From: Solwaraspora sp. WMMD791
Lineage (GTDB): Bacteria; Actinomycetota; Actinomycetes; Mycobacteriales; Micromonosporaceae
Length of the DNA stretch: 64,000 nucleotides
NCBI RefSeq assembly: GCF_029581195.1
Contig: NZ_CP120737.1
Location: forward strand, 3,201,001 to 3,265,000
Direction: 5' to 3'
Part shown: piece after piece, positions 50,041-64,000 of the stretch
Layout: each line of letters begins with the position of its first letter
Position numbering within the stretch: the first letter of the stretch is position 1
The notes under the pieces: generated by a model
Seen by the model: only the letters and a program-made list of their open reading frames with translations
What the model was told of the DNA's origin: nothing
Database searches by the model: none
Made by a program: the position numbers and the translations under genes

Positions 50041-51960
50041 GTGAGTCGTGACCATCTTCGCGAGAACCTTCCGGACCGCATCGACGACCAACCCCGTACC
50101 GGCCGGCGTGCCCTGCTGCAGGCGGCGCTCGCCGCGCCCGCCGCAGGCACCGCGGCGACGCTGCTCGGCACCCCCACCACCGCCGCCGCCGGCGCGGCCG
50201 GCGCGGCCGGCGGCGGCCAGTTCGACCCGGCCAGCCCGCGCTTCGCGCTGGCGGTGATGCCGGACACCCAGTACCTGTTCGACGCCGACAGCTCCGATCC
50301 GGAGCCGCTGAAGGCCGCGTTCCGCCACCTCAACCAGCAACGTGCCGACGCCAACATCGCCTTCCTGACCCACCTCGGCGACATCACCGAACACGGCAGT
50401 GCACACGAGATCGGCCTGGCCAGCGACGCGTTCCGGACCATCGACGGCCGGCTTCCGTACAGCGTCCTGGCCGGCAACCACGACATCCGGGGCGGCGACG
50501 ACCAGCGCGGCGACAGCGACTACCTACGCGCCTTCGGGCCACAGCGGTTCGCCGGCACACCGACCTTCGGCGGCGCCTCTCCCGACGGCTACAACAGCTT
50601 CCACGTGTTGCGGGCCGGTGGCCGGGACTGGTTGGTGCTGGCGCTGGACTGGCGGGCCTCCGACCAGGGGCTGGCCTGGGTACAGCGGGTGATCGACGAC
50701 CACCGGACGCTGCCAGCGATCCTCACCACCCACGACCTGGCCTGGGCCGACACCGCCGGTCGGGCCCAGTTGTCCGCCCACGGCCAGCGGTTGTGGGATC
50801 GGTTGATCCGGGACAACGACCAGATCTTCCTCACCCTCAACGGCCACTACTGGCCGCCGGGGCGGACCACGATGACCAACGCGGCCGGCAACGAGGTGCA
50901 CGTACACCTCGCCAACTACCAGGACCGCTACTACGGTGGTGCCGGCATGATCCGCCTCTACCACTTCGACCTGGTCCGCAACGTGATCGACGTGGAGACC
51001 TTCTCGCCCTGGGTCCTGGCCCGCGACCCGGCCAAGCGCACCCCGCTGGCGGCCGAGACGGTCGAGCTGACCGGGCCGGTCGACCGGTTCAGCGTCGAGA
51101 TCGACTTCGCGGCCCGGTTCGACGGGTTCGCGCCGGTGCCGCCGCCCGCGCCCCGGCCACCGGTCGCGGCGCTGCTGCACGCCACCGTCGGCTACTGGCG
51201 CTTCGACTCGGCCGGCTTCGGTGCCGGCGCCGGCAGCCCGGTCACCGGCAACCCGGTGCTCGACGGCACCGTGGTCCGCGACCTCAGCGGCAACGGCAAC
51301 GACCTGACCGTGGGCCGGATCGGCGCCGGCACCGCCGAGACGTTGACCTTCTCCGACGAGCACCACAGCGGTCAGCCGGCGCACGCCAGCCTGCGCTTCG
51401 ACGGCGGCAAGGGACCGGACCGGGGCGCGGTCCTGCGGGCCGGGCCGGACGCACCGATCAACAGCATGAAGTTCCGCGACGGCTACACCATCGAGGCATT
51501 CGTCAAGTTGCCCGACCCGTTCCAGGGTGACCATGCCTGGATGGGGATTCTGAGCTGGGAGGGGCGTAGCGGCGACGCCGGCAAGACCACCGGCTGGTCG
51601 CCGTTGGAGTGCACCTGCAGTCTCAACGTCTCGCCCGAGCGGTTCCTGCAGTACGTCGTCTACGCCGACGTGCAGGACGCCGATCCGACGTCGTGGAGCC
51701 ACGCCCTGCCGACCGGCCGCTGGATGCACCTGGCCGTGGTGAACGACTCGCGGCAGACGACGGTCCACGTCGATGGTTCGCCGATCGCCCGTAACCCGAC
51801 CCAGCCGTCGACCGGGATCGCCACCCTCGGCCGGCCGTTCGTGATCGGGGCCACCTCGTTCGACCTACGGTACGGCCAGGGCTTCTACGGCTGGATCGGC
51901 GACGTGCGGATCACTGCCAAGGCGCTGCGCCCCAAGCAGTTCCTCCACCCGTACGCCTAG
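50041..51960 (+). CDS. Exported metallophosphoesterase with LamG-like domain
   Basis: A 639-aa protein. A twin-arginine signal (RTGRRALLQAALAAPAAGTA, about 19-38) suggests Tat export. A calcineurin-like phosphoesterase domain (about 65-300) shows AVMPDTQYL, HLGDITEHG, AGNHDIRGG, ILTTHDLAW and LNGHY, the usual metal ligands. A LamG/concanavalin-like domain (about 385-635) follows, starting VGYWRFDSAGFGAG and ending FYGWIGDVRITAKAL. The likely role is hydrolysis of extracellular phosphate esters while bound to polysaccharide; the substrate is unknown. GTG at 50041. Confidence 0.88.
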   Translation: MSRDHLRENLPDRIDDQPRTGRRALLQAALAAPAAGTAATLLGTPTTAAAGAAGAAGGGQFDPASPRFALAVMPDTQYLFDADSSDPEPLKAAFRHLNQQRADANIAFLTHLGDITEHGSAHEIGLASDAFRTIDGRLPYSVLAGNHDIRGGDDQRGDSDYLRAFGPQRFAGTPTFGGASPDGYNSFHVLRAGGRDWLVLALDWRASDQGLAWVQRVIDDHRTLPAILTTHDLAWADTAGRAQLSAHGQRLWDRLIRDNDQIFLTLNGHYWPPGRTTMTNAAGNEVHVHLANYQDRYYGGAGMIRLYHFDLVRNVIDVETFSPWVLARDPAKRTPLAAETVELTGPVDRFSVEIDFAARFDGFAPVPPPAPRPPVAALLHATVGYWRFDSAGFGAGAGSPVTGNPVLDGTVVRDLSGNGNDLTVGRIGAGTAETLTFSDEHHSGQPAHASLRFDGGKGPDRGAVLRAGPDAPINSMKFRDGYTIEAFVKLPDPFQGDHAWMGILSWEGRSGDAGKTTGWSPLECTCSLNVSPERFLQYVVYADVQDADPTSWSHALPTGRWMHLAVVNDSRQTTVHVDGSPIARNPTQPSTGIATLGRPFVIGATSFDLRYGQGFYGWIGDVRITAKALRPKQFLHPYA

Positions 51961-52028: not shown

Positions 52029-53590
<1,562 letters not shown>

Positions 53591-54139: not shown

Positions 54140-54418
54140 TCAACCGGCGGCGGCGTCGCCCCGCTCCGGAGGCTTCTTCCGGGCGTACTTGGCACGGAAC
54201 TTCTCCACCCGGCCGGCGCTGTCCAGCAGCCGCTGCCGGCCGGTCCAAAAGGGGTGGCTGGCCGAGGAGATCTCCACGTCGACCACCGGGTACGTCCGGC
54301 CGTCGGTCCACTCGATCGTCTTCTGACTGGTCGCGGTCGACCGGGTCAAGAATGCGAAATCCGCACTCCGGTCCCGGAAAACTACATAATCGTACTTGGG
54401 GTGAATATCGGGCTTCAT
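54140..54418 (-). CDS. rpmE2: 50S ribosomal protein L31 type B, cysteine-free
   Basis: A 92-aa L31 paralogue starting [20 protein letters not shown]. It has the conserved [21 protein letters not shown] but no cysteine at all, so it does not need zinc. In many bacteria this C- form replaces zinc-containing L31 during zinc starvation, releasing zinc, and is repressed by Zur. A Zur-box-like site lies 24 bp upstream of the start. The C+ partner is at 15977-16201. Transcribed divergently from the histidine-rich gene. Confidence 0.95.
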
Positions 54419-54441
54419 CCTCCGAAAACCAGCCTTCCTGG

Positions 54442-54460
54442 CGCTGATAATGGTTGTCAT
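54442..54460. promoter_or_regulatory. Zur-box-like site 1 (rpmE2 / His-rich gene)
   Basis: On the minus strand it reads ATGACAACCATTATCAGCG. The core TGANAANNNTTNTCA is dyad-symmetric and agrees with two further sites in the window (59284-59302 and 63577-63595). It lies 24 bp before rpmE2 and 101 bp before the divergent histidine-rich gene. Confidence 0.7.
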
Positions 54461-54561
54461 TTTAGCAGGAAGCTCCACGCCCGAACCCGGACATGACCAC
54501 AGCACGTGGGCGACCGGATGTATGCTCGTATCGCGATATGAAGATAAATGAGGAGGCATCG

Positions 54562-54855
54562 ATGTCCCACGCAGTGCACACCGAGCACCCGCACAGCCAC
54601 TCCGCGACCTGCGGGCACGCCGCCGTCAGCCACGACGGGCACACCGATTACCTGCACGACGGGCATGTCCACCACGAGCACGCCGGGCACTGGGACGAGT
54701 GCGGGACCGACCAGCACGTGACAGCCGAGTCACATGGCGACCACGCCCATGGTCCGGACTGTGGCCACGAGACGGTGCCCCACGGCGACCACCAGGACTT
54801 CGTCCACGCCGGGCACCGGCACGCCGCGCACGGCGACCACTACGACGAGCACTGA
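54562..54855 (+). CDS. Histidine-rich metal-binding protein
   Basis: A 97-aa protein with 27 histidines (28 percent), three cysteines and many acidic residues. Two related units of 30 residues (17-46 and 67-96) share the pattern CGH-x4-H-x2-H-x4-H-x2-H-x-H and end in a D-E. No signal peptide is seen, so it is probably a cytoplasmic zinc buffer or chaperone. ATG at 54562 follows AGGAGG. It shares the divergent Zur-box-like region with rpmE2. Its last 16 bp overlap the 3' end of the convergent LPxTG gene. Confidence 0.85.
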
Positions 54856-56519
54856 GTCGGGCGGCGCCGCCGCGCCGCGAGCAGCACCAGTACGCCAGCG
54901 ATCAACAGGGTGGCTCCGGTGGCCGGCAGATGCCACGACGATCCGGTCCTGGGCAGTCTGTCGTCACCGGAACCGCCGCCACCCGGGTTGTCGCCACCGC
55001 CCGGATTCCCGCCCCCGGGTCCGAAACCGGTGTCCGGGTCCGTCGCGTCACCGATCGCCAGGGTGAGCGTCCGGGAGTCGGTGACCGTCGACCCCGACGT
55101 CGTCGTGGCCGACATCTCGAAGGCCAGTCGGTAGATACCCGGCTCGCTGAACGCCCAGTTGCCGTGGGCATGCGTGTTGATCGGGACATCGAGCCGCTGC
55201 GGCAGCCGGTCCGCCGAGTTGAACAGCACCTCGGACTCGCCGAACGACCCCGTCAGGAACAACGCGAACCGGCCGGGACCGTCGACGCCGGCCAAGGTCC
55301 AGGTGACCGCGCCACGGACCCCGGCCACCACCGACGGATGCTGGGTGTTCCAGCCCGGCCAGACGATGCCGGAACGCTGCCCCTGCGGCAGCAGCCACAC
55401 CTCGTCACCGGGGGCGCCGAGGAAATCGGCGTTGTCCGGAACGGTGATCTTCGCGTTGTCCTTGACGTGCAGCACCACGTCGGCGAGCTCGCGCCACACC
55501 GGGGGCGAGACGCTGTCGTCCTTGAGCCGGATGGTCCAGTCCGCACCGGCGAGCTCCGGGCCCATGTCGACGTGACCGTCGTCGATCACCACCCGTGACC
55601 CGTCCCGCTGGGCCGCTGCGGCGAGCGACGGCGTGGCGCTGGTCGCCGCCGGCGCGGCACCCGCCGCCAGCGGTCGCGCGGCGATCTCCGGCGACGCCGA
55701 ACCGCGCGGCGCGTTGCCGCCGGTGGCGGCATCCGATGCCCTGGCCAGGCCCGCCGCAGGAACGGGAGCCGTGCCCGGAGCCGGGGCCGGAGCCGGCTGC
55801 GGATCACCCGGGCCGGGCCGGGCCGCGTCGAGCGGCGGCACCAGCACCCGGTAGTCGGCGTCGGCCGTCACCACGTCCCCGTTGGTCAGGGTCGCCGCCG
55901 CCGACAGCGTCAGCCGGTACTCACCTGCGGCGTCGAAGAGCCAGACCAGACCGCCGGTCCTGGTCGCGGCCGGCAGCCGGGCGGTACGCGGCATGGCGTC
56001 GAGGGTGCCGAGCAGCGGCGTCGGCTGGCCGAGCCCACCAAGGGTGTACGCGGCGAAGCCCCCCGGTCCGTCGACCTGACGCAGCGACAGCTCGACCGTG
56101 TCGCCGCGTACCGCCCCTGCGGGCACCGCCCGCGTGTCGAGGTACGGAAAATCGGCGTCGTCGCCGGTCAGTGCCCACACCGGCCGGCCGGCTGCGCCGA
56201 GGAACCGGAACGCCGGATGGTCCGGGGTCCGCACCACCACGCCGCCGGTCGGCCCGAGGACCACCGTCGCCGGCTTCCGGTCGGACCCGGACGCCTCGCG
56301 CGTGACCACCGACAGCGTTGCGCCGTCGAGCGTGACCGCCACCAGGTCGGACCCGGCCGCGTCCAGCGGCGCGGACGCCGCCGCCGGTGGGTCGGTCGCC
56401 GGTGCGGCGGCCGCCGGAGCCGGCACGGTCAGGGCCGCTGCCAGCGCCGACACCGTCAGGAGTGCGGCGTATCGGCGTCGGGTCGCCGTACCGGTCGGGC
56501 GGTGGATCGTCGTCGTCAT
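54840..56519 (-). CDS. LPxTG-anchored surface protein with two choice-of-anchor M repeats
   Basis: A 559-aa exported protein. A signal peptide (about 1-40, LLTVSALAAALTVPAPAAAA) is followed by a degenerate repeat (about 60-230), a Pro/Ala linker (about 235-300) and a canonical repeat (about 310-495) with GHVDMGPELAG and HAHGNWAFSEPGIYRLAF. A Gly/Asn/Asp-rich stretch leads to LPRTG and LPATG motifs, a hydrophobic segment (ATLLIAGVLVLLAA) and RRRR, the layout of a sortase substrate. It matches the actinobacterial ABC-transporter-associated wall protein family (TIGR03773-like). Its ATG overlaps the DUF916 gene stop as TGATG. Confidence 0.88.
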   Translation of the reverse strand: MTTTIHRPTGTATRRRYAALLTVSALAAALTVPAPAAAAPATDPPAAASAPLDAAGSDLVAVTLDGATLSVVTREASGSDRKPATVVLGPTGGVVVRTPDHPAFRFLGAAGRPVWALTGDDADFPYLDTRAVPAGAVRGDTVELSLRQVDGPGGFAAYTLGGLGQPTPLLGTLDAMPRTARLPAATRTGGLVWLFDAAGEYRLTLSAAATLTNGDVVTADADYRVLVPPLDAARPGPGDPQPAPAPAPGTAPVPAAGLARASDAATGGNAPRGSASPEIAARPLAAGAAPAATSATPSLAAAAQRDGSRVVIDDGHVDMGPELAGADWTIRLKDDSVSPPVWRELADVVLHVKDNAKITVPDNADFLGAPGDEVWLLPQGQRSGIVWPGWNTQHPSVVAGVRGAVTWTLAGVDGPGRFALFLTGSFGESEVLFNSADRLPQRLDVPINTHAHGNWAFSEPGIYRLAFEMSATTTSGSTVTDSRTLTLAIGDATDPDTGFGPGGGNPGGGDNPGGGGSGDDRLPRTGSSWHLPATGATLLIAGVLVLLAARRRRPTQCSS

Positions 56520-57634
56520 CAGGTCCCCTGGGTCGTCTTCTCGTCAGTGGGTTCGGAGACCGCGCGGGCGCGAACGGCCTCGGCACGGCCCTGTTCGCGG
56601 GCGGCGGCGACGGCCTGTTCGAGCTGGTCGGTCCGTCGACGCCGGACACGTCGGCGGCGCGCGACGGCCAGCCAGCCGGCCAGCCCGATGACCAGCAGGA
56701 TCATCAGGTGCGGCCACGGGACGGCCCAGAGGCCGGCCTCCCGGGTCACCGTCGGCGGGGCCGGGTCGAGCACCTCGTCGGTGGCCGCGACCGGTGCGAG
56801 GGTCAGTCGCGCACCGAGCCGGAACGTCGGCGGTACGCCGTCGACCCGTACCGTGGTCCGGAAGCTGTCACCGGGCAGAATCTCCGGCAGCGGATCGCCG
56901 GTGGCCTCGCGCCCGAACAGCCCGAACGGTCCGGTGACGGCCAGCTGCGGCCGCCCGCCGAGTCGGACGTTGCCGGTGTTGCGGACGGTGAAGGTCGTCG
57001 TGACGGAGCCACCGCCGAACGGGTCCCAGGTGCCGTCGTACGTCGTCGACAGGTCCACGACGTCCAGACCAGGCTGGAGTTCGCCGGTGACCCGCAGGTA
57101 GATCCGGGAGCCGACCCGGTGGTCGACCGCCACCTGGTTGCCCTCGGCGTCGGTGCCGGTGGCGGCGAGCGAGGCGACGATGCCGCCGGGGTGGTCGCCA
57201 GGGGTGGCGTCGTCCGGTACGGCGATGGTGAACGGCACGTCCAGGCGCGACGTCGACGGCACGGTGAAGGTGCGGGACTCGAACGTGACCCAGGAACCGA
57301 CGTCGACCGGTTCCCCGGTCGCGGGCAACAGATCGAAGCCGCCCTGGTCGGTGGTGAACGCGTCGCTGGCGTACACGTCGAGGGTGATCGGCTGGTCGGA
57401 GTGGTTCGTGATCGCCACGTAGTCGGTGAGCGTGGCACCGGGGTCCAGCTTGTACTCGAACGCCGGCCGGCCGTTCGGCCCGTCCGGGCTGGACGGGGCG
57501 ACGCCCCAGGTCAGCGACTGGGCCGCGACGGGCGTGCGGTGCGGCGATCCGGCCGGGACCGTTGCGGTGACCGGGCCGGTCACCGCGACGGCGGCGACGA
57601 GGAGTCCGGCGAGCAGGGCTGCTGGCGTACGCAT
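56519..57634 (-). CDS. DUF916 (WxL-interacting) membrane protein
   Basis: A 371-aa protein with a signal peptide (about 1-32), a DUF916 peptidoglycan-binding domain (about 40-170: SLTWGVAPSSPDGPNGRPAF, LDPGATLTDYVAITNHSDQP, GGIVASLAATG) and a second beta domain. A C-terminal transmembrane helix (PHLMILLVIGLAGWLAVARR) and an Arg/Glu-rich cytoplasmic tail follow. In Firmicutes such proteins are partners of WxL proteins. The preceding gene encodes a WxL-like C-terminal domain, which fits. ATG at 57634 gives a proper signal peptide. Confidence 0.85.
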   Translation of the reverse strand: MRTPAALLAGLLVAAVAVTGPVTATVPAGSPHRTPVAAQSLTWGVAPSSPDGPNGRPAFEYKLDPGATLTDYVAITNHSDQPITLDVYASDAFTTDQGGFDLLPATGEPVDVGSWVTFESRTFTVPSTSRLDVPFTIAVPDDATPGDHPGGIVASLAATGTDAEGNQVAVDHRVGSRIYLRVTGELQPGLDVVDLSTTYDGTWDPFGGGSVTTTFTVRNTGNVRLGGRPQLAVTGPFGLFGREATGDPLPEILPGDSFRTTVRVDGVPPTFRLGARLTLAPVAATDEVLDPAPPTVTREAGLWAVPWPHLMILLVIGLAGWLAVARRRRVRRRRTDQLEQAVAAAREQGRAEAVRARAVSEPTDEKTTQGT

Positions 57635-57724
57635 GCGGGGTGGGTCCGTTTCGCGGAGGGTGTGGGACGGGCCGGGCGACGACCGGCACGGTGCCGTCGC
57701 CCGGCCCGTCACCGGCCGCGATCC

Positions 57725-59194
57725 TCAGATCGCGGTGAGGGTGAGGGTCGCGGTGTAGGTGCCGGGCGCGGTCTCGGTCGGCAGCCGCAGCTGCAGACCG
57801 GCGCCCAGGGTCGCGGTGCCCCGGCCGGCGCCGGCGGGGGCCGAGCCGAGCACGGCGCTGCTGCCGAGCCCGCCGCCGACGCCGACGACGTACGGCGCGA
57901 CGGCCGGTCCGGCCACCACGCCCTGACCGGCGGACTGGTCGACCACCTGCGGGGTCCAGCCCAGGTAGCCGGAGCTGAAGGTGGCACCGTCGGGGCCGGT
58001 GAAGTTCTCCGGCAACTGGCCGGAGGCGCTCCAGCCCGGGGTGCCGGCCCGGGTGTCGGTGACGGTGACCGGGCGCAGCGTCCCGGTGCTCTCCCAACTG
58101 TCACCGCCGCTGGTCAACTGCGCCGGCGGCAGGACGACGCTGCGGTCGTCCGGGTCGACGCTGATCACCAGCGCGCCCTGGGTGGGGTCGATCGACGCGG
58201 TGATGGTCTGCGAGGTGCCCGGGTCTGTCGGGGTGAAGGCCACCCAGAGCCAGACCTCCGCGCTGGTCGCGACGACGCTGTGGTTGTCGTCGTAGAGCTT
58301 CACCTGGTACTCGCACGCGTTGAGCTCACGGGTGGCGGTGAAACTGTAGGACCCGCCGGCCTCGCCGGGGATGATGGCGAAGTCGTCGGAGCCGGGGCAG
58401 CGGCTGAACCAGTGGTAGTGGTCCAGCGCGGTCTGTGGGGTCTGGACCGCCTGCAGGGTGACGGTGTCACCGGGCTGGTACTCGTCGGCCATGCCGGCGA
58501 TGCTGAGCACGGTGTCCGGGCCGGTGCCGCCGAGCTCGCCGACGACGAACGTGTAGTCCACCGGGCCGGTGCTGACGGTCGTGCCGTCGGTCAAGGTCGC
58601 GTCGACCTGGAAGGTCAACGTGTAGTCACCCTCGGCGCTGAATGCCCAGTTGGCGTGGGCGTGGGTGCGGATCGGCACGTCGATCGTGTCCGGAAGGCCG
58701 TCGTCGCTGCGGAACTTCATCAACGGGCTACCGAAGCTGTCCTGGGTGAACACCGAGACGTTGCCGGGGCCGGCGACGTCGACGAGGCTCAACTGGACCT
58801 GGTCGCCGGCGAAGGTGCCGGCGCCGAGGGTGGTGGTGTTCCAGCCGGGCCAGAGCAGGTCCGGGTCCTGGGTGAGCGGCAGCAGCCAGATCTGGGAGCC
58901 GGCCGGGCCGAGAAAGGCGAACCGGGGGTCGTCCGGCACCGCCATCGCGGCCTCGGGCAGCACCTGGAAGATCACGTCGGCCGGGTCGTGGCTGACCGAC
59001 GGGCTGATCGTGTCGTCGTGGACCTCCAGGGACAGCTCGCCATCGTGGTAGTGGATGTCGACGGCGTCGGTGTGGCCCTTGGCGAGCACCACCTTCTCAG
59101 CGGCGGCCGCGGCGGTCGGCGCCAGCAGTACGCCGCCGGTGATCACCGCCGCGCCGATCAGGGCCGCGAGCTTGCGGGCACCTGTTGTTCCCAT
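57725..59194 (-). CDS. Secreted choice-of-anchor M protein with WxL-like C-terminal domain
   Basis: A 489-aa secreted protein. After a signal peptide (about 1-31, LIGAAVITGGVLLAP) comes a choice-of-anchor M repeat (about 35-200) with GHTDAVDIHYHDGELSLEVH and HAHANWAFSAEGDYTLTF. An Ig-like segment with two cysteines (CPGSDD and NACEYQ) and a C-terminal WxL-like domain (about 330-489; TDTRAGTPGWSASGQ, GYLGWTPQV, ending APGTYTATLTLTAI) follow. The two W motifs lack the leucine of the classic W-x-L. It has no transmembrane anchor, so it may be held at the wall by the DUF916 partner. A Zur-box-like site lies 90 bp upstream. Confidence 0.85.
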   Translation of the reverse strand: MGTTGARKLAALIGAAVITGGVLLAPTAAAAAEKVVLAKGHTDAVDIHYHDGELSLEVHDDTISPSVSHDPADVIFQVLPEAAMAVPDDPRFAFLGPAGSQIWLLPLTQDPDLLWPGWNTTTLGAGTFAGDQVQLSLVDVAGPGNVSVFTQDSFGSPLMKFRSDDGLPDTIDVPIRTHAHANWAFSAEGDYTLTFQVDATLTDGTTVSTGPVDYTFVVGELGGTGPDTVLSIAGMADEYQPGDTVTLQAVQTPQTALDHYHWFSRCPGSDDFAIIPGEAGGSYSFTATRELNACEYQVKLYDDNHSVVATSAEVWLWVAFTPTDPGTSQTITASIDPTQGALVISVDPDDRSVVLPPAQLTSGGDSWESTGTLRPVTVTDTRAGTPGWSASGQLPENFTGPDGATFSSGYLGWTPQVVDQSAGQGVVAGPAVAPYVVGVGGGLGSSAVLGSAPAGAGRGTATLGAGLQLRLPTETAPGTYTATLTLTAI

Positions 59195-59283
59195 ACTTCC
59201 TCCCCTCGCCCGCACCGGGGATCGGTACGGGGCGTGGTCGTGACGGGGCGTGGTCGTGACGGGGCGGGAGCCCCGATGCACCG

Positions 59284-59302
59284 TAACGACAATCGTTTTC
59301 AT
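59284..59302. promoter_or_regulatory. Zur-box-like site 2
   Basis: Minus strand: ATGAAAACGATTGTCGTTA. It touches the permease stop codon and lies about 90 bp before the WxL-like gene, suggesting a separate zinc-controlled promoter for the three downstream surface-protein genes. Confidence 0.75.
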
Positions 59303-60237
59303 TAGCCCATCGGCCGTTCGGCCACCTCCGCCAACGCCGGTGTGACCTGCGGCTCAGGTGCGCCCCCAGGCCCAGGGGCGCCGTCCGGCTCCCGACGGCG
59401 CCGGGAGAGCAGGCCGTGACGTGGGGCGAAGACCCAGGCCAGCAGGAACACCCCGGTCGCCACCAGCACGACCGTGCCGCCGACCGGCAGGTCGTAACTC
59501 CAGGACAGGTACAACCCCACCAGCGCCGAACCGCCGCCGATCACCGGGGCGAGCAGCATCATCACGCCGAGCCGGTCGGTGAGCAGCCGGGCCGCCGCCG
59601 CCGGGGTGATCAGCAACGCCAGGACCAGAATGTTGCCGATCGTCTGCAACGAGATCACCACAGCCAGGGTGACCAGCACGTACAGCACGATGTCCAGCCA
59701 GAACACCGGCAGCCCGACCGACCGGGCCGACTCCCGGTCGAGGCTGACCGCGACCAGCTCCTTGTGCAGCAGGAACAACACCGTCAGGATCGCCAGGCCG
59801 GTGAAGCCGACCGTGTAGAGGTCCCGGTCCGGGATGCCGGTGATCGAACCGAACAGGAACTGCTGCAGCGAACCGGCGTACCCCGGTGCCTGCGAGATGA
59901 TCACGATTCCCAGGGCGAAGGCTGCCACGAAGAACACCCCGATCAGGGAGTCCTCCTTGAGCCGGCGCCGCTGAGCGAAGACCGCGATCAGCAGGGCGGT
60001 CACGATCCCGGCGACCGCGCCGCCCAGCACCAGGCTGCCCTGCAGTACGAAGGCGACCGCCAGCCCGGGGAACACCGCGTGCGCCACGGCGTCCCCGATG
60101 AACGCCATCCCGCGCAGCACCACGTAGCAGCCGACCACGCCACAGACCACGCTGGACATGACCGCGATCAGCAGCGCCTTCGGCAGGAACGCCAGATCCG
60201 GATTGAGCAGGTCGGCGATGAACTCGGTGATCGGCAT
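59302..60237 (-). CDS. Anchored-repeat-type zinc ABC transporter permease
   Basis: A 311-aa permease of the ZnuB/ABC-3 family with eight to nine transmembrane helices. Conserved segments are GCYVVLRGMAFIGDAVAHAV, ALGIVIISQAPGYAGSLQQ, FLFGSITGIPDRDLYTV and LALLITPAAAARLLTDRLG. The ATG at 60237 overlaps the ATPase stop as TGATG, so the two are translated together. The C-terminal cytoplasmic tail is Pro/Gly/Arg-rich. With the ATPase and substrate-binding protein it forms a probable zinc (or manganese) importer. Confidence 0.92.
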   Translation of the reverse strand: MPITEFIADLLNPDLAFLPKALLIAVMSSVVCGVVGCYVVLRGMAFIGDAVAHAVFPGLAVAFVLQGSLVLGGAVAGIVTALLIAVFAQRRRLKEDSLIGVFFVAAFALGIVIISQAPGYAGSLQQFLFGSITGIPDRDLYTVGFTGLAILTVLFLLHKELVAVSLDRESARSVGLPVFWLDIVLYVLVTLAVVISLQTIGNILVLALLITPAAAARLLTDRLGVMMLLAPVIGGGSALVGLYLSWSYDLPVGGTVVLVATGVFLLAWVFAPRHGLLSRRRREPDGAPGPGGAPEPQVTPALAEVAERPMG

Positions 60238-60992
60238 CAGTCCTCGCCCTCCCCCGCGCCGACCAGACGCAGCAACGGTGACCGTTCGCTGACCCCGAAG
60301 GTGCGCATCCACAGCTGCGGATCCCGCAGCTCGGTCGGCTTGCCCTCGGCGATGACCCGCCGGTTGAGCAGCACCAGCCGGGAGCAGGAGTCCATCGCCC
60401 CGATCAGGTCGTGAGTGGTCATCAACAGCGGCGTACCTTCGGCCGCGAGGCTGGCGAACAGCTCGCCGAGCAGCTCCTGGGTCGGCATGTCCAACCCGGT
60501 GAACGGCTCGTCGAGCAGCAGCAACGCTGGCTGCAACGCCAACGCCCGGGCCACCAGTACCCGCTGGCGCTGGCCGCCGGACAACTCGGCGACCGGCCGG
60601 CGACGCAGGTCGCCCAGGCGTACCCGGTCGATCGCCTCGGCGGTCGCCCGCCAGTCGGCCGCACCCGGTCGCCGCAGCAGCCCGACCCGACCGGTACGGC
60701 CGCTGAGCACCGCCTCCTGCACCGAGATCGGGAACTCCCAGGCGAACTCGTGCCGCTGCGGCACGTACCCGATCGCGCACCGCCCCGGCCGGCTCGGCAC
60801 CCCGTCGACCAGCACCTGCCCCGACCGGGTCCGGATCAACCCGAGCACCGCGCGCAACAGGGTGGTCTTTCCGGCCCCGTTCGGCCCGATCAGCCCGACC
60901 AGCTCCCCCGGGTCGACGTGCAGTCGGACACCGCGCAGCACCGGGCGGCCGCCGAGGTCCACGTCGAGATCGTGTACGGCGAGAGCGGTCAC
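60237..60992 (-). CDS. Anchored-repeat-type zinc ABC transporter ATPase
   Basis: A 251-aa ABC ATPase of the ZnuC type. Walker A is GPNGAGKTT (about 36-44), the signature is LSGGQRQR, Walker B is LLLLDEPFTGLD, and the switch histidine is in MTTHDL. The start is GTG at 60992, overlapping the upstream gene stop as GTGA. The longer open frame is a shadow of the upstream gene. It powers import through the adjacent permease. Confidence 0.94.
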   Translation of the reverse strand: MTALAVHDLDVDLGGRPVLRGVRLHVDPGELVGLIGPNGAGKTTLLRAVLGLIRTRSGQVLVDGVPSRPGRCAIGYVPQRHEFAWEFPISVQEAVLSGRTGRVGLLRRPGAADWRATAEAIDRVRLGDLRRRPVAELSGGQRQRVLVARALALQPALLLLDEPFTGLDMPTQELLGELFASLAAEGTPLLMTTHDLIGAMDSCSRLVLLNRRVIAEGKPTELRDPQLWMRTFGVSERSPLLRLVGAGEGED

Positions 60993-61927
60993 GATCCGGC
61001 ACGCTCCTGTTCGACCCGGCGGCGTACCGCCCGCCCCCGCAGCACGACGGCGACCAGCGCGCCGGCCAGCCCGACGGCGACCACGACGAGGCCGACGACC
61101 AGCCACGGCCCGGCACCGCCGGCGGCGTCGTCGGCCGGCCCGGCGCCATCCGGCCCGGCCGGCGGCGGCGCGGGCGCGACCTCGTCGGGTCGTGCGGCGA
61201 GCGCGTCGTCGGGGCTGGTCGCGTCGCCGACGGCGAACCGTAGATGCCGGGTGGCCGAGACCCGCTCGCCACCGACCAGGTCCGCGCTGACCCGCACGGC
61301 GACCAGGTACACGCCGGGGGTGGTGAACACCCAGTTGGCGTGGGTGTGGGTGTTGACCTCTACCCACATCGGCTGGCCGGGCGGCTCGGCGGAACGCCAC
61401 AGCACCTGCGGTTCACTGAACGTGCCGTCCTGCAGGTACATGACGACCTCGCCGGGGCCGTCCACACCGGCCAGCTCCAGGGTCACGCCCCGGTCGATGG
61501 TCTCCATCACCCGGGGGTCCTGGGTGTTCCAGCCGACCCACACCACGTCGGGGTGCTGCACCTGCGGCACCACGTGCACCTGCGTGCCGGCCGGTACGCC
61601 GAGGAAGCCGTACACCGGATCGTCCGGGACGTCCCGCAGCGCGGCGTCGGTGACCCGCAGCACGGTCCGGTCCGGGTCCCGCCACACCGGCTGCGCGGCG
61701 TCGTCGTGGATCAGCAGGGTCCACTCGTCGTCGACGTAGCGTGGCCCCAGGTCGACGTGGCCGGCGGCGAGCACCGCGGGTTCGTCGGCGACCGGCAGGT
61801 CCGGCGCGATCGACTGGTCCAACACCGGGTCGGGCGACGAGGGCTGGGCGGCGGGCGATGCGGGCTGGGCGGCCAGCGTCATCGCCAGCAGCGCGGACAC
61901 GGCCATCGACAGGCCGATCGACTTCAC
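60989..61927 (-). CDS. Membrane-anchored choice-of-anchor M protein
   Basis: A 312-aa protein with a signal peptide (about 1-25, SMAVSALLAMTLAAQPAS). One choice-of-anchor M repeat (about 50-235) contains GHVDLGPRYVDDEWTLLIHD, GWNTQDPRV and HTHANWVFTTPGVYLVAV. A Pro/Ala/Asp linker and a C-terminal transmembrane helix (WLVVGLVVVAVGLAGALVAV) with an Arg-rich tail follow. It sits between the substrate-binding protein and the ATPase genes, overlapping the latter by 4 bp, so it is an integral part of the transporter operon. GTG at 61927 follows GAGGAGG. Confidence 0.88.
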   Translation of the reverse strand: MKSIGLSMAVSALLAMTLAAQPASPAAQPSSPDPVLDQSIAPDLPVADEPAVLAAGHVDLGPRYVDDEWTLLIHDDAAQPVWRDPDRTVLRVTDAALRDVPDDPVYGFLGVPAGTQVHVVPQVQHPDVVWVGWNTQDPRVMETIDRGVTLELAGVDGPGEVVMYLQDGTFSEPQVLWRSAEPPGQPMWVEVNTHTHANWVFTTPGVYLVAVRVSADLVGGERVSATRHLRFAVGDATSPDDALAARPDEVAPAPPPAGPDGAGPADDAAGGAGPWLVVGLVVVAVGLAGALVAVVLRGRAVRRRVEQERAGS

Positions 61928-61937
61928 TGATGCCTCC

Positions 61938-63512
61938 TCAGGGTGCCAGGCAGTCGAGCAGCGACGCGGCGTTGAACCGCATCAGCTGGACGTAGGTGCG
62001 CACCCGGTCGTCGAACGTGTCGCCGTAGATCTCGCAGACCCGTACGTCGAGGTCGTCGGCGAGTTCGGTCAATGTCGACGACCGCGACCGCAGGCCGGAC
62101 TCCAGGAAGACCGCCGGCACCCGCAGGTTGCGGATCGTCTCGGTGAGCCGGCGCCGGTCGGCCAGGCTCGGCTCGGCACCCGGGTGCGGGGTGACGAACC
62201 CGGAGATCTGCACGTCGTACGCGGCCCCGAGGTAACCGAACGCGTCGTGGGTGGTGATCAGATGCCGCCGGCCGGGTGGAATGAGCGCGATGGTGTCCCG
62301 CACGTGGTCGTCGAGCGCGGTCAGCTCGGCGATGTACGCTGCGGCGCGCTGCCGGTAGTCGGCCGCACCGGCCGGATCCGCCTTGATCAGGGTGTCGCGG
62401 ATCAGTTCGGTGTACGCGACGACGTTGCGGACGTTCTGCCACAGGTGCGGGTCGATCTCGCCGTGTACGTGCTTGCCGAGCACCGCCTGGGGCAGCTGGA
62501 AGATCTCGGTGCCGGGGCGGCCGAGGAAGCGGAAGTCCCGGCCGGCCGGGACCTGGGCGAGGGCCTTGTTCGGCACCTCGATGACGGTGTCGGCCGGGTC
62601 GTGCACCTGCTGGTGGGCCTCGCCGGCGCCGTGCGGGTCGGCGAACAGGTACAGCGACGGCTCGCCGCGTGCCGCCGCGTCGAGGTCGACGGTGATGTCG
62701 GCGTGGCCGCCACGCAGCACGTCGGCCCCGGCCATGCCGGGCACGCTGTGCGGGTCGACGCCGACGGCGAAGGTGAAGGTCTGCTCCCCGAGGGCGACGG
62801 GGCGGCTGTCGGGGGTGACCGCCAGCCGCGCCGACATGGTGAGGCGGTAGACGCCCGGCTCGGTGAACGCCCAGCTCATGTGGGTGTGGGCGTCCGGTGG
62901 CAGGGTGGCGGTGTCGTCCCGGTAGCCGGAGGCGGCGTCGAACCCGTCGGCCGAGTCGAGGTAGACGGCCGGGTTGCCGAACGACTCGGTGAGGTAGGCG
63001 GCCATGGTGCCGGGGCCGGTCACGGTGGTGCTCTGCAGCAGGATGTCGGAGGCCCGGTCGGCGCCGTAGGTCCCGCCGGTGCCACGGACCCGCATGCCGA
63101 GCCAGATCGTGTCGAGCGCGACGTCCTCGACCAGCGGGATGATCTCGGCCGCGTACTTGATGGCACCCTCAGCGAGGGAGATGTTCGGTACGCCGTCGGG
63201 CAGGTTGGCGTCGAGCGCCTTGATGATGGCGTGCTCCTCCAGCAGCAGATAGTTGCTGAAGGCGACGTCGGCGTAGACGACGTTGCGCACGTCGCGCAGC
63301 GACGGCTCGTACGAGTGGGGGTCGGCGCCGTCGGGGACGAGCGAGGCGACCGCGACCCGGTCGCCGCCGACGTTGTCGACCAGGTCCCGCAGGATGCCGG
63401 TGGTGGTGACGACCTGGAGGCGGTCGTCGGTGGCGCTCAGCGTCGGCGGGGCCGCGCAGCCGGCCAGGGCGACGGCCAGCAGGATCGACCCGACGAGCCC
63501 CCGTACGCGCAC
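61938..63512 (-). CDS. Zinc ABC transporter substrate-binding lipoprotein with inserted surface repeat
   Basis: A 524-aa lipoprotein (lipobox LAGC, Cys19). It has a ZnuA/TroA fold split by an insertion. N-lobe: VVTTTGILRDLVDNVGGDRV and the ligand histidine in DPHSYEP. A choice-of-anchor M repeat is then inserted (about 150-375: AHTHMSWAFTEPGVYRLTMS, GHADITVDLD). C-lobe: ligand histidines in HVHGEIDPHLWQNVRN and TTHDAFGYLGAAYDV, then CEIYGDTF. Three histidine ligands favour zinc over manganese. It matches the TIGR03772-type anchored-repeat SBP. GTG at 63512; a Zur-box-like site is 65 bp upstream. Confidence 0.92.
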   Translation of the reverse strand: MRVRGLVGSILLAVALAGCAAPPTLSATDDRLQVVTTTGILRDLVDNVGGDRVAVASLVPDGADPHSYEPSLRDVRNVVYADVAFSNYLLLEEHAIIKALDANLPDGVPNISLAEGAIKYAAEIIPLVEDVALDTIWLGMRVRGTGGTYGADRASDILLQSTTVTGPGTMAAYLTESFGNPAVYLDSADGFDAASGYRDDTATLPPDAHTHMSWAFTEPGVYRLTMSARLAVTPDSRPVALGEQTFTFAVGVDPHSVPGMAGADVLRGGHADITVDLDAAARGEPSLYLFADPHGAGEAHQQVHDPADTVIEVPNKALAQVPAGRDFRFLGRPGTEIFQLPQAVLGKHVHGEIDPHLWQNVRNVVAYTELIRDTLIKADPAGAADYRQRAAAYIAELTALDDHVRDTIALIPPGRRHLITTHDAFGYLGAAYDVQISGFVTPHPGAEPSLADRRRLTETIRNLRVPAVFLESGLRSRSSTLTELADDLDVRVCEIYGDTFDDRVRTYVQLMRFNAASLLDCLAP

Positions 63513-63576
63513 TGTCCCACCCGCCTTCCCATCGTCCCCGCGCCGCTGCGCCTTCGCGTCCCGCACGGTAGCACGC

Positions 63577-63595
63577 AAACGATAATCGTTGTCAT
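63577..63595. promoter_or_regulatory. Zur-box-like site 3
   Basis: Minus strand: ATGACAACGATTATCGTTT, 65 bp before the substrate-binding protein start. It is the best match to the consensus ATGAMAACSATTRTCGTT shared by the three sites. Confidence 0.75.
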
Positions 63596-63663
63596 ACCCG
63601 TTTCGGCGTGCAGCCGGTGCCGACCGTGGTCACGGTCGACACCGACTGGACGTACCGGCAAGG

Positions 63664-64000
63664 TCAGCCGACCTCGAAGGTGAACTCCTCGGTGGCGCTC
63701 ACCGTCTGGCCGTTCGACGCCCGTACGCCGCTGACCTCGAACGTCGCCACGTAGGTGCCGGCGGCGTCGAAGCCCCAGTTGACATGGGCGTGGGTGTTGC
63801 GGTTGACGTTGAGGCTGTCCGGCAGCCCGTTGCCGCTGTCGAACAGCACGGTGGGGGTGCCGCCGGAGGCGGTGAAGACGCTGAAGCCGCCGGGGCCCTG
63901 CACCTCGGTCAGTTTGACCGTGACCCGGTTGAACTGCAGGGCGCCGCTGGCGACACCGGTGGTGTCCCAGCCGGCCCAGAGCAGGCCGGCGGTGTTGGTC
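63664..64000 (-). CDS. Choice-of-anchor M surface protein, 3' part only
   Basis: The last 112 codons of a gene whose start lies beyond the window. The sequence contains VQGPGGFSVFTASGG, LPDSLNVNRNTHAHVNWGFD and GTYVATFEVSGV, the C-terminal half of a choice-of-anchor M repeat, and ends directly after FTFEVG without an anchor. It is a further member of the same surface-repeat family as the downstream transporter genes. Confidence 0.85.
   Translation of the reverse strand, partial: TNTAGLLWAGWDTTGVASGALQFNRVTVKLTEVQGPGGFSVFTASGGTPTVLFDSGNGLPDSLNVNRNTHAHVNWGFDAAGTYVATFEVSGVRASNGQTVSATEEFTFEVG

Follow-up and report, generated by a model that had tools for sequence, protein, structure and literature searches.

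The window analysed here, a 64,000-nucleotide stretch of the genome of Solwaraspora sp. WMMD791 (G000:C1:3201001-3265000; genome of 6.93 Mb in a single contig), holds at one end a metal importer of the TIGR03769-03773 "anchored repeat" type with copies of the choice-of-anchor M domain (NF038134 / TIGR03769), hereafter the M domain. The best explanation of this locus, to which we give a probability of about 0.6, is Zur-repressed, high-affinity zinc scavenging, in which M domains would be arrayed from the wall to the membrane and a receiving module would be built into the importer itself. Read 5' to 3' on the minus strand, the order is M1, M2, the substrate-binding protein (SBP), E, the ATPase and permease of an ATP-binding cassette (ABC) transporter, F, the WxL-interacting protein (WxLIP) and G. 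The genes are listed below by window coordinates, with profile scores set against their curated cut-offs where two values are given; start codons were chosen, and signal peptides and hydrophobic tails recognised, by eye.

Window-equivalent 64350-65036, minus strand: M1, an M protein of 228 residues, just outside the window.
63664-64320, minus strand: M2, a single M domain with a signal peptide and no anchor seen; the gene extends beyond the window (NF038134, 105 bits for the in-window part).
61938-63506, minus strand: SBP, a ZnuA-type lipoprotein with an LAGC lipobox (TIGR03772, 778 versus 350 bits).
60989-61927, minus strand: E, ZnuE-like, an M domain followed by a C-terminal hydrophobic segment and a basic tail (NF038134, 196 bits).
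60237-60992, minus strand: ABC transporter ATPase (TIGR03771, 371 versus 269 bits).
59302-60237, minus strand: ABC transporter permease (TIGR03770, 466 versus 297 bits; PF00950, 240 bits).
57725-59194, minus strand: F, an M domain, a beta-rich middle and a C-terminal WxL-like domain; start picked at the signal peptide (NF038134, 191 bits).
56519-57634, minus strand: WxLIP, with a C-terminal hydrophobic segment, between F and G (PF06030, 47.8 versus 27.3 bits).
54840-56519, minus strand: G, an LPRTG protein with two M domains (TIGR03773, 380 versus 190 bits; TIGR01167, 17.3 versus 15.9 bits).

All four families TIGR03770-03773 were thus above their cut-offs. An initial annotation of the window had described at least six copies of the repeat in five consecutive products, interleaved with a ZnuABC-type transporter, and this was borne out: NF038134 and TIGR03769 found six copies in five products (M2, SBP, E, F and G) above their cut-offs in the window, and the transporter genes scored as listed. 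The search with TIGR03769, TIGR03772 and TIGR03773 that it had proposed returned the scores above and, across the whole genome, seven TIGR03769 matches, all inside this cluster (seven copies in six products). The copy that it called truncated is in fact a complete open reading frame (ORF) of 218 residues (M2, L008:10664-11320), interrupted merely by the window edge, with one more M protein, M1, beyond. Both copies that it had placed in the LPxTG protein are present, but the first carries no motif histidines (by eye on the sequence). The span 54140-64000, which it had taken for a surface locus, does contain the M locus, but 54140-54418 encodes a cysteine-free ribosomal protein L31, not a surface protein.

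For comparison, loci were fetched from species genomes by the peptide patterns [DE]AHTH[MV][SN]W or PQAV[LI]GKH, which gave 368 confirmed stretches; the best 80 were retained for all counts on homologous loci. These 80 (73 from Actinomycetes, 6 from Thermoleophilia, 1 from Acidimicrobiia) are not independent, as 35 belong to Micromonosporaceae, and the locus of Corynebacterium diphtheriae is not among them. Among named loci the best match was that of Micromonospora phaseoli, at 80% identity over the best segment, very near genomes possibly having been left out. By best phmmer match, the SBP was present in all 80 loci, and E, the ATPase and the permease were each found in 79; the counts for the others were 68 (F), 60 (G), 43 (WxLIP; 44 by profile), 38 (M1) and 36 (M2). 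Since the M proteins are related, the names F, G, M1 and M2 denote the best match here. Across a sample of the phylum, 3 of 296 genomes, the host among them, had TIGR03772 above cut-off, indicating a broad but sparse distribution.

The M domain of the SBP is circularly permuted. It is an insert at residues 133-340 approximately, with the presumed metal ligands H64 and H354 on either side. An M profile was built from five domains of the host genome (those of E, F, M1 and M2 and the second of G), the SBP being excluded. Applied to the 80 SBPs, it found both halves of the domain in 78, with the C-terminal half first in all 78, and one half in the other 2; the normal order was seen in none of the 80. 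The two swapped stretches arise because the domain is permuted: after rotation near the WxGW turn, the profile gave a single full-length match in 80 of 80 SBPs, and the median best score rose from 58 to 103 bits. The rotated profile split each of six ordinary M domains tested in two. AlphaFold2 models of F (mean predicted local distance difference test score, pLDDT, of 85, and about 95 in the M domain) and of the SBP (mean 77) displayed, by eye, the same rotation of strand order, SBP residues 105-111 to 207-218 corresponding to 114-119 to 212-218 of F, and 232-234 to 304-308 corresponding to 35-37 to 101-105. A circular permutation would explain the "reverse order" of the motif described for C. 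diphtheriae ZnuA (PMC12445094).

The site of the insertion is itself informative. In an alignment with the canonical ZnuA of the host genome, the insert covers the His-rich loop of the latter, directly before DPHLW. Solved manganese and zinc SBPs align on both flanks and not in the insert (two alignments, among the matches listed), and Foldseek matched the SBP model to such structures over about 500 columns with target template modelling (TM) scores of 0.73-0.84 (among the matches listed). In AztC, the D-loop (residues 117-133, before H138) and its three histidines are essential for the acceptance of zinc from AztD (PMC7463823). The permuted M domain takes the place of the His-rich loop of ZnuA and of the zinc-accepting D-loop of AztC, a position that lends indirect support to a hand-over. 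Among 50 SBPs (the host SBP and 49 of the 80, thinned at 87% identity), the triad and Asp residues H207, H209, H268 and D270, the HVH pair H346 and H348 and the four core ligands assigned by homology (H64, H354, H420 and D496) were identical in all 50, a count that is biased for H207, H209 and H346 because these lie inside the peptide patterns used for fetching. H268, D270, H348 and the core ligands lie outside the patterns, and two SBPs recovered by profile alone (G214 and G246) have the same residues. The HVH pair lies just before the core histidine.

Further evidence for a link to zinc was provided by Zur-type boxes, three of which lie in the window.

63580-63594, minus strand: Zur-type box TGACAACGATTATCG, upstream of the SBP, 74 bp before its assumed GTG start.
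59287-59301, minus strand: Zur-type box TGAAAACGATTGTCG, immediately 3' of the permease gene and upstream of F.
54445-54459, plus strand: Zur-type box TGATAATGGTTGTCA, between the L31 gene and a His-rich gene.

The sequence signature of a Zur regulon, a 7-1-7 palindrome like TGAAAATGATTTTCA at promoters, was thus found. The sites deviate at several positions from the Streptomyces coelicolor Zur consensus (PMC2823685), which at up to 3 mismatches had 2 sites in the window versus 0.04 expected. A pattern, TGANAAYGRTTNTCR, was built from five sites (three at the M locus, one before the canonical znuA and one at a CobW gene near the L28 and L33 genes); it had 7 exact matches in the 6.93 Mb, and the reversed pattern had none. 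Four of the 7 lie in or beside the M locus, and three precede gene groups of the locus. The remaining boxes are those of L31 and the His-rich gene, of the canonical znuA (PF01297), of the CobW gene near L28/L33 and of an ATP-grasp gene; the matches outside the five training sites are the SBP box and the ATP-grasp box. Because the pattern was derived from five of its own seven matches, the homologous loci are a fairer control. There (1.64 Mb), 37 exact sites occurred in 32 loci, with no match of the reversed pattern, and at up to one mismatch 153 sites in 69 of the 80 loci, with one match of the reversed pattern. At most 450 bp upstream of a locus gene lay 108 of the 153, versus 20% of random positions, the gene start being approximated by the first conserved domain or the first Met/Val. 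Zur- and zinc-dependent expression is known for the homologous operons of C. diphtheriae (PMC6711530), and the Zur regulon of Corynebacterium glutamicum already includes surface-anchored proteins (PMC2823685). The zinc responsiveness proposed in the initial annotation, whose interpretation as a whole is partly supported, draws support from both the conserved boxes and the experiments on the C. diphtheriae homologues (PMC6711530, PMC12445094), and we infer that the locus is regulated by zinc in this species as well.

The seventh box in the genome (G000:C1:5682293-5682307; L153:13294) lies 34 bp upstream of the ATP-grasp gene (L153:11950-13260, minus strand), which has an L-amino-acid-ligase C-terminal domain (PF13535, PF18603); the gene after it encodes a DUF364 "putative heavy-metal chelation" protein (L153:11045-11953, minus strand; PF04016). 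The two are possibly a zinc-starvation pair that makes or handles a metal chelator.

These genes bear on the idea that the substrate of the importer is not free zinc but a zinc complex (zincophore) or a different metal (manganese). The ATP-grasp/L-amino-acid-ligase-like gene could make a chelator, and a zincophore is rendered slightly likelier because the DUF364 gene follows it under the seventh box; by sequence and fold, the top matches of the SBP core are manganese and zinc binders alike (MntA 5hx7 and AztC 5w56/5w57, among the matches listed). Counting against this idea, which we consider very unlikely, are the Zur-type boxes shared with the zinc-independent L31 and the CobW gene, and the repression of the homologous operons by zinc (PMC6711530).

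Outside the SBPs, the 80 loci hold 424 full M domains, of which 419 were gap-free at the four motif columns (5 rows dropped). All three motif histidines were present in 374 of the 419, none in 43 and some in 2, while the motif Asp was retained in 98% overall and, where HxH is lacking, in 36 of 45 rows. The WxGW turn covaries with the triad (phi of 0.82 for W86 and 0.91 for G88), which fits a turn adjoining the site; the same turn is the opening point of the permuted copy. On a FastTree tree, the minimum number of changes was 7 for H13, 8 for HxH and 7 for the Asp, and 15-55, with weaker agreement, for the comparison residues A53, F65, G67, G126 and T91. Supported branches provided 4 independent pairs, in which the other motif half changed the same way in 3.8-4.0 and never in the opposite way (sign test, p 0.125). 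Triad-free copies are mostly the first domain of two-domain proteins (pattern DL, 33 of 45), and these may trace to one old loss.

The M domains could also be structural or adhesive, their conserved histidines serving folding and the link to zinc being incidental. The 43 triad-free domains still recognised by the profile would fit this, as would the unspecific immunoglobulin-like matches of F to the PDB (Foldseek, TM at most 0.35 and root mean square deviation above 14, among the matches listed, 50 of 1983) and the response of His-to-Ala ZnuE to zinc in vitro (PMC12445094). It is hard to reconcile with the joint retention or loss of the triad while the Asp stays, with the intact copy found in the same chain in 43 of the 45 proteins that have a triad-free one, with the identity of H268 and D270 in every SBP compared and with the requirement for the histidines in the effects of ZnuE and ZnuG in vivo (PMC12445094), and we give it hardly any chance.

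Two types of wall anchor are predicted. G is a candidate sortase substrate, as its LPxTG motif scored above the cut-off and the genome has 4 sortase-family matches above cut-off. A domain of about 160 residues with two Trp motifs stands at the C terminus (to within 10 residues) of F and of 47 related ORFs, and all 12 family members scanned matched Pfam WxL (PF13731) at E<=10 (best E 1.1e-5). An M domain is carried by 45 of the 47; the others are a 703-residue ORF and a 112-residue ORF with a partial match. The WxL-like domain occurs in 41 loci, all 41 of which also have WxLIP, and neither is found in 36; the 3 loci with WxLIP and no WxL-like domain are on contigs starting at that end. In 38 loci the two genes are close same-strand neighbours. 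This pairing suggests that F would be anchored through WxLIP, which is above the gathering score for PF06030 (PGBD domain) and matches the solved EfmWxLIP1 weakly (E 0.14). The WxL-like profile had a single match among solved structures, PsaK at E 0.13, and nothing relevant. As in the WxL/WxLIP clusters of Lactobacillales and Bacillales, the protein with a C-terminal WxL-like domain has as neighbour a DUF916 protein that carries a hydrophobic segment at its C terminus, with an LPxTG protein in the cluster (PMC9772566, PMC10599100). In contrast to these clusters, the present one is actinobacterial and lies beside a zinc importer; the combination that marks a WxL cluster, DUF3324 plus a small WxL protein, was not found, no small WxL protein being seen and DUF3324 having no match at E<=0.01. 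According to one survey, more than 91% of known WxL sequences come from Firmicutes (PMC9772566), which means that a minority outside this phylum was already known; another placed almost all of them in Lactobacillales and Bacillales (PMC10599100). WxLIP was found in 28 of the 296 sampled genomes (E<=0.001), 20 of them above cut-off; since it occurs beyond the M locus, the WxL/WxLIP pair is not unique to zinc proteins. A second WxLIP-type match in the host genome lies outside the M locus, at G000:C1:3436032-3436358. In genome G226, a TIGR03769 match (L154:7697-8991) is followed on its strand, some 900 bp downstream, by one to PF06030. TIGR03772 is not above cut-off in this genome, and the 17-kb stretch holds nothing close to the Zur-type pattern; the pair of M protein and WxLIP may occur without the transporter.

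The closest precedent is znuAECB/znuFG of C. diphtheriae (PMC12445094, PMC6711530), which has the same kinds of protein in the same order (A-E-C-B, then F and G), the same HxD/HxH motif, reversed in ZnuA as in the SBP here, and Zur-repressed promoters before A and F, where Zur-type boxes stand before the SBP and F in our locus. In 2025, ZnuE, ZnuF and ZnuG were reported to undergo thermal shifts that depend on zinc (PMC12445094), and the statement of the initial annotation that the ligand was not established is outdated; that paper could not, however, ascribe the binding to the motif histidines in vitro. Our locus differs in having two extra secreted M proteins, in the reading of the reverse order as a circular permutation and in an F that ends in a WxL-like domain beside a WxLIP gene; C. 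diphtheriae ZnuF is described with two motifs and a C-terminal transmembrane segment (PMC12445094). Given that segment, and as this locus is not among the 80 fetched, we do not propose WxL/WxLIP as the cause of its sortase-independent wall location.

AztABCD with its chaperone AztD (PMC7463823) is likewise a zinc importer in which an SBP loop before the metal histidine accepts zinc from a partner; here a whole M domain stands in for that loop. The curated cut-offs for AztC, AztB and AztA were not reached (196/350, 224/280 and 175/220 bits), and no AztD gene was noticed, no search aimed at AztD having been made. In AdcA of streptococci, the extra ZinT-type domain is appended. This two-domain zinc lipoprotein also joins an importer SBP with an extra zinc-recruiting domain (PMC7858048), and for the streptococcal Pht proteins, which carry His motifs on the cell surface, delivery of zinc to an SBP has been proposed (PMC12445094). 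Both differ from the present system in their motifs, and the extra domain is here inserted and permuted.

Zinc scavenging by this locus might proceed as follows. Under zinc starvation, Zur would leave the boxes and three gene groups would be expressed, M1-M2, SBP-E-ATPase-permease and F-WxLIP-G. One probably zinc-binding module would thereby appear at several depths of the envelope: M1 and M2 would be secreted and released, G would hold its M domains on the wall covalently through LPxTG and F non-covalently through WxL/WxLIP, E would display an M domain at the membrane, and the SBP would carry one within itself. The permuted M domain would receive zinc, whether directly or by way of other M domains, and hand it across the HVH pair, which is invariant, to the core site (H64, H354, H420 and D496), from which it would be imported. 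That zinc moves as a bare ion from wall M domain to membrane M domain, to the M domain of the SBP and to the core site of the same chain, in a homotypic layered relay, is a hypothesis that we advance only tentatively. NEAT-domain haem relays follow a comparable logic, but carry haem and not a bare metal ion. The open-access papers found contain no demonstration of a relay such as the initial annotation had inferred.

The main rival to such a relay is a wall-side buffer or store, in which the wall M proteins would hold zinc or protect against its excess, with no directed hand-over, and the transporter would take free zinc. Two findings in C. diphtheriae favour a store: a znuAECB mutant grows again once znuF/znuG are deleted, and growth is inhibited when these two genes are over-expressed; the authors name storage and transport facilitation both as possible (PMC12445094). 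On the other side, the wall proteins have Zur-type boxes and synteny in common with the importer, and the same domain, triad included, is built into the SBP at a known zinc-acceptance loop position; we consider a store unlikely. Besides these two growth effects, several observations weigh against zinc scavenging as outlined above. The zinc-dependent thermal shift of ZnuE persists in vitro when its three histidines are replaced by alanine, and the C. diphtheriae znuA mutant has a weak phenotype (PMC12445094). No box at up to one mismatch was found in 11 of the 80 loci (Solirubrobacteraceae 3/3, Conexibacteraceae 2/3, Microthrixaceae 1/1, Micromonosporaceae 3/35, Nocardioidaceae 1/5 and Ruaniaceae 1/2). 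The pLDDT of the SBP model falls below 50 at residues 83-101 and 311-321, which are both joints of the insert; the terminal domain of F is under the Pfam WxL gathering score (14.1 versus 25 bits), hence "WxL-like"; and the independence of the triad losses, at p 0.125, is not statistically secured and is suggestive only.

The neighbourhood of the locus comprises the following genes.

54562-54855, plus strand: a small His/Cys-rich protein of two similar units, divergent from L31.
54140-54418, minus strand: ribosomal protein L31 without cysteine (by eye), the zinc-independent form (PF01197, 92 bits).
L008:12096-13415: CobW-type GTPase gene upstream of M1 (PF02492, 187 bits).

The small His/Cys-rich protein had no match in a Pfam search, and ORFs related to it were found in 11 of the 80 loci (low-complexity search). 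Farther into the window, a TetR-type regulator (PF00440) is divergent from an alpha/beta hydrolase (PF00561) at 52029-53590, and 50041-51960 (plus strand) encodes a calcineurin-like phosphoesterase with a laminin-G/ConA-like domain (PF00149, PF13385).

The idea of a Zur-regulated, zinc-binding system of this kind is not new, znuAECB-FG of C. diphtheriae having been published (PMC12445094, PMC6711530). No report of the permutation, of the joint retention or loss of the triad or of the link to WxL appeared in the open-access papers found, although subscription papers may hold them. The locus thus belongs to a known type of system, in which the permuted module of the SBP and one wall anchor appear to be new variant details. 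For a thinly annotated actinobacterial family, this leads to a testable hypothesis on how the walls of Gram-positive bacteria may supply a metal importer. The permuted domain, lying at the position of the zinc-accepting loop, offers a single place to cut, the His triad the residues to target and the natural triad-free copies ready-made controls, while the WxL-like/WxLIP pair would represent a sortase-independent anchor for a zinc protein.

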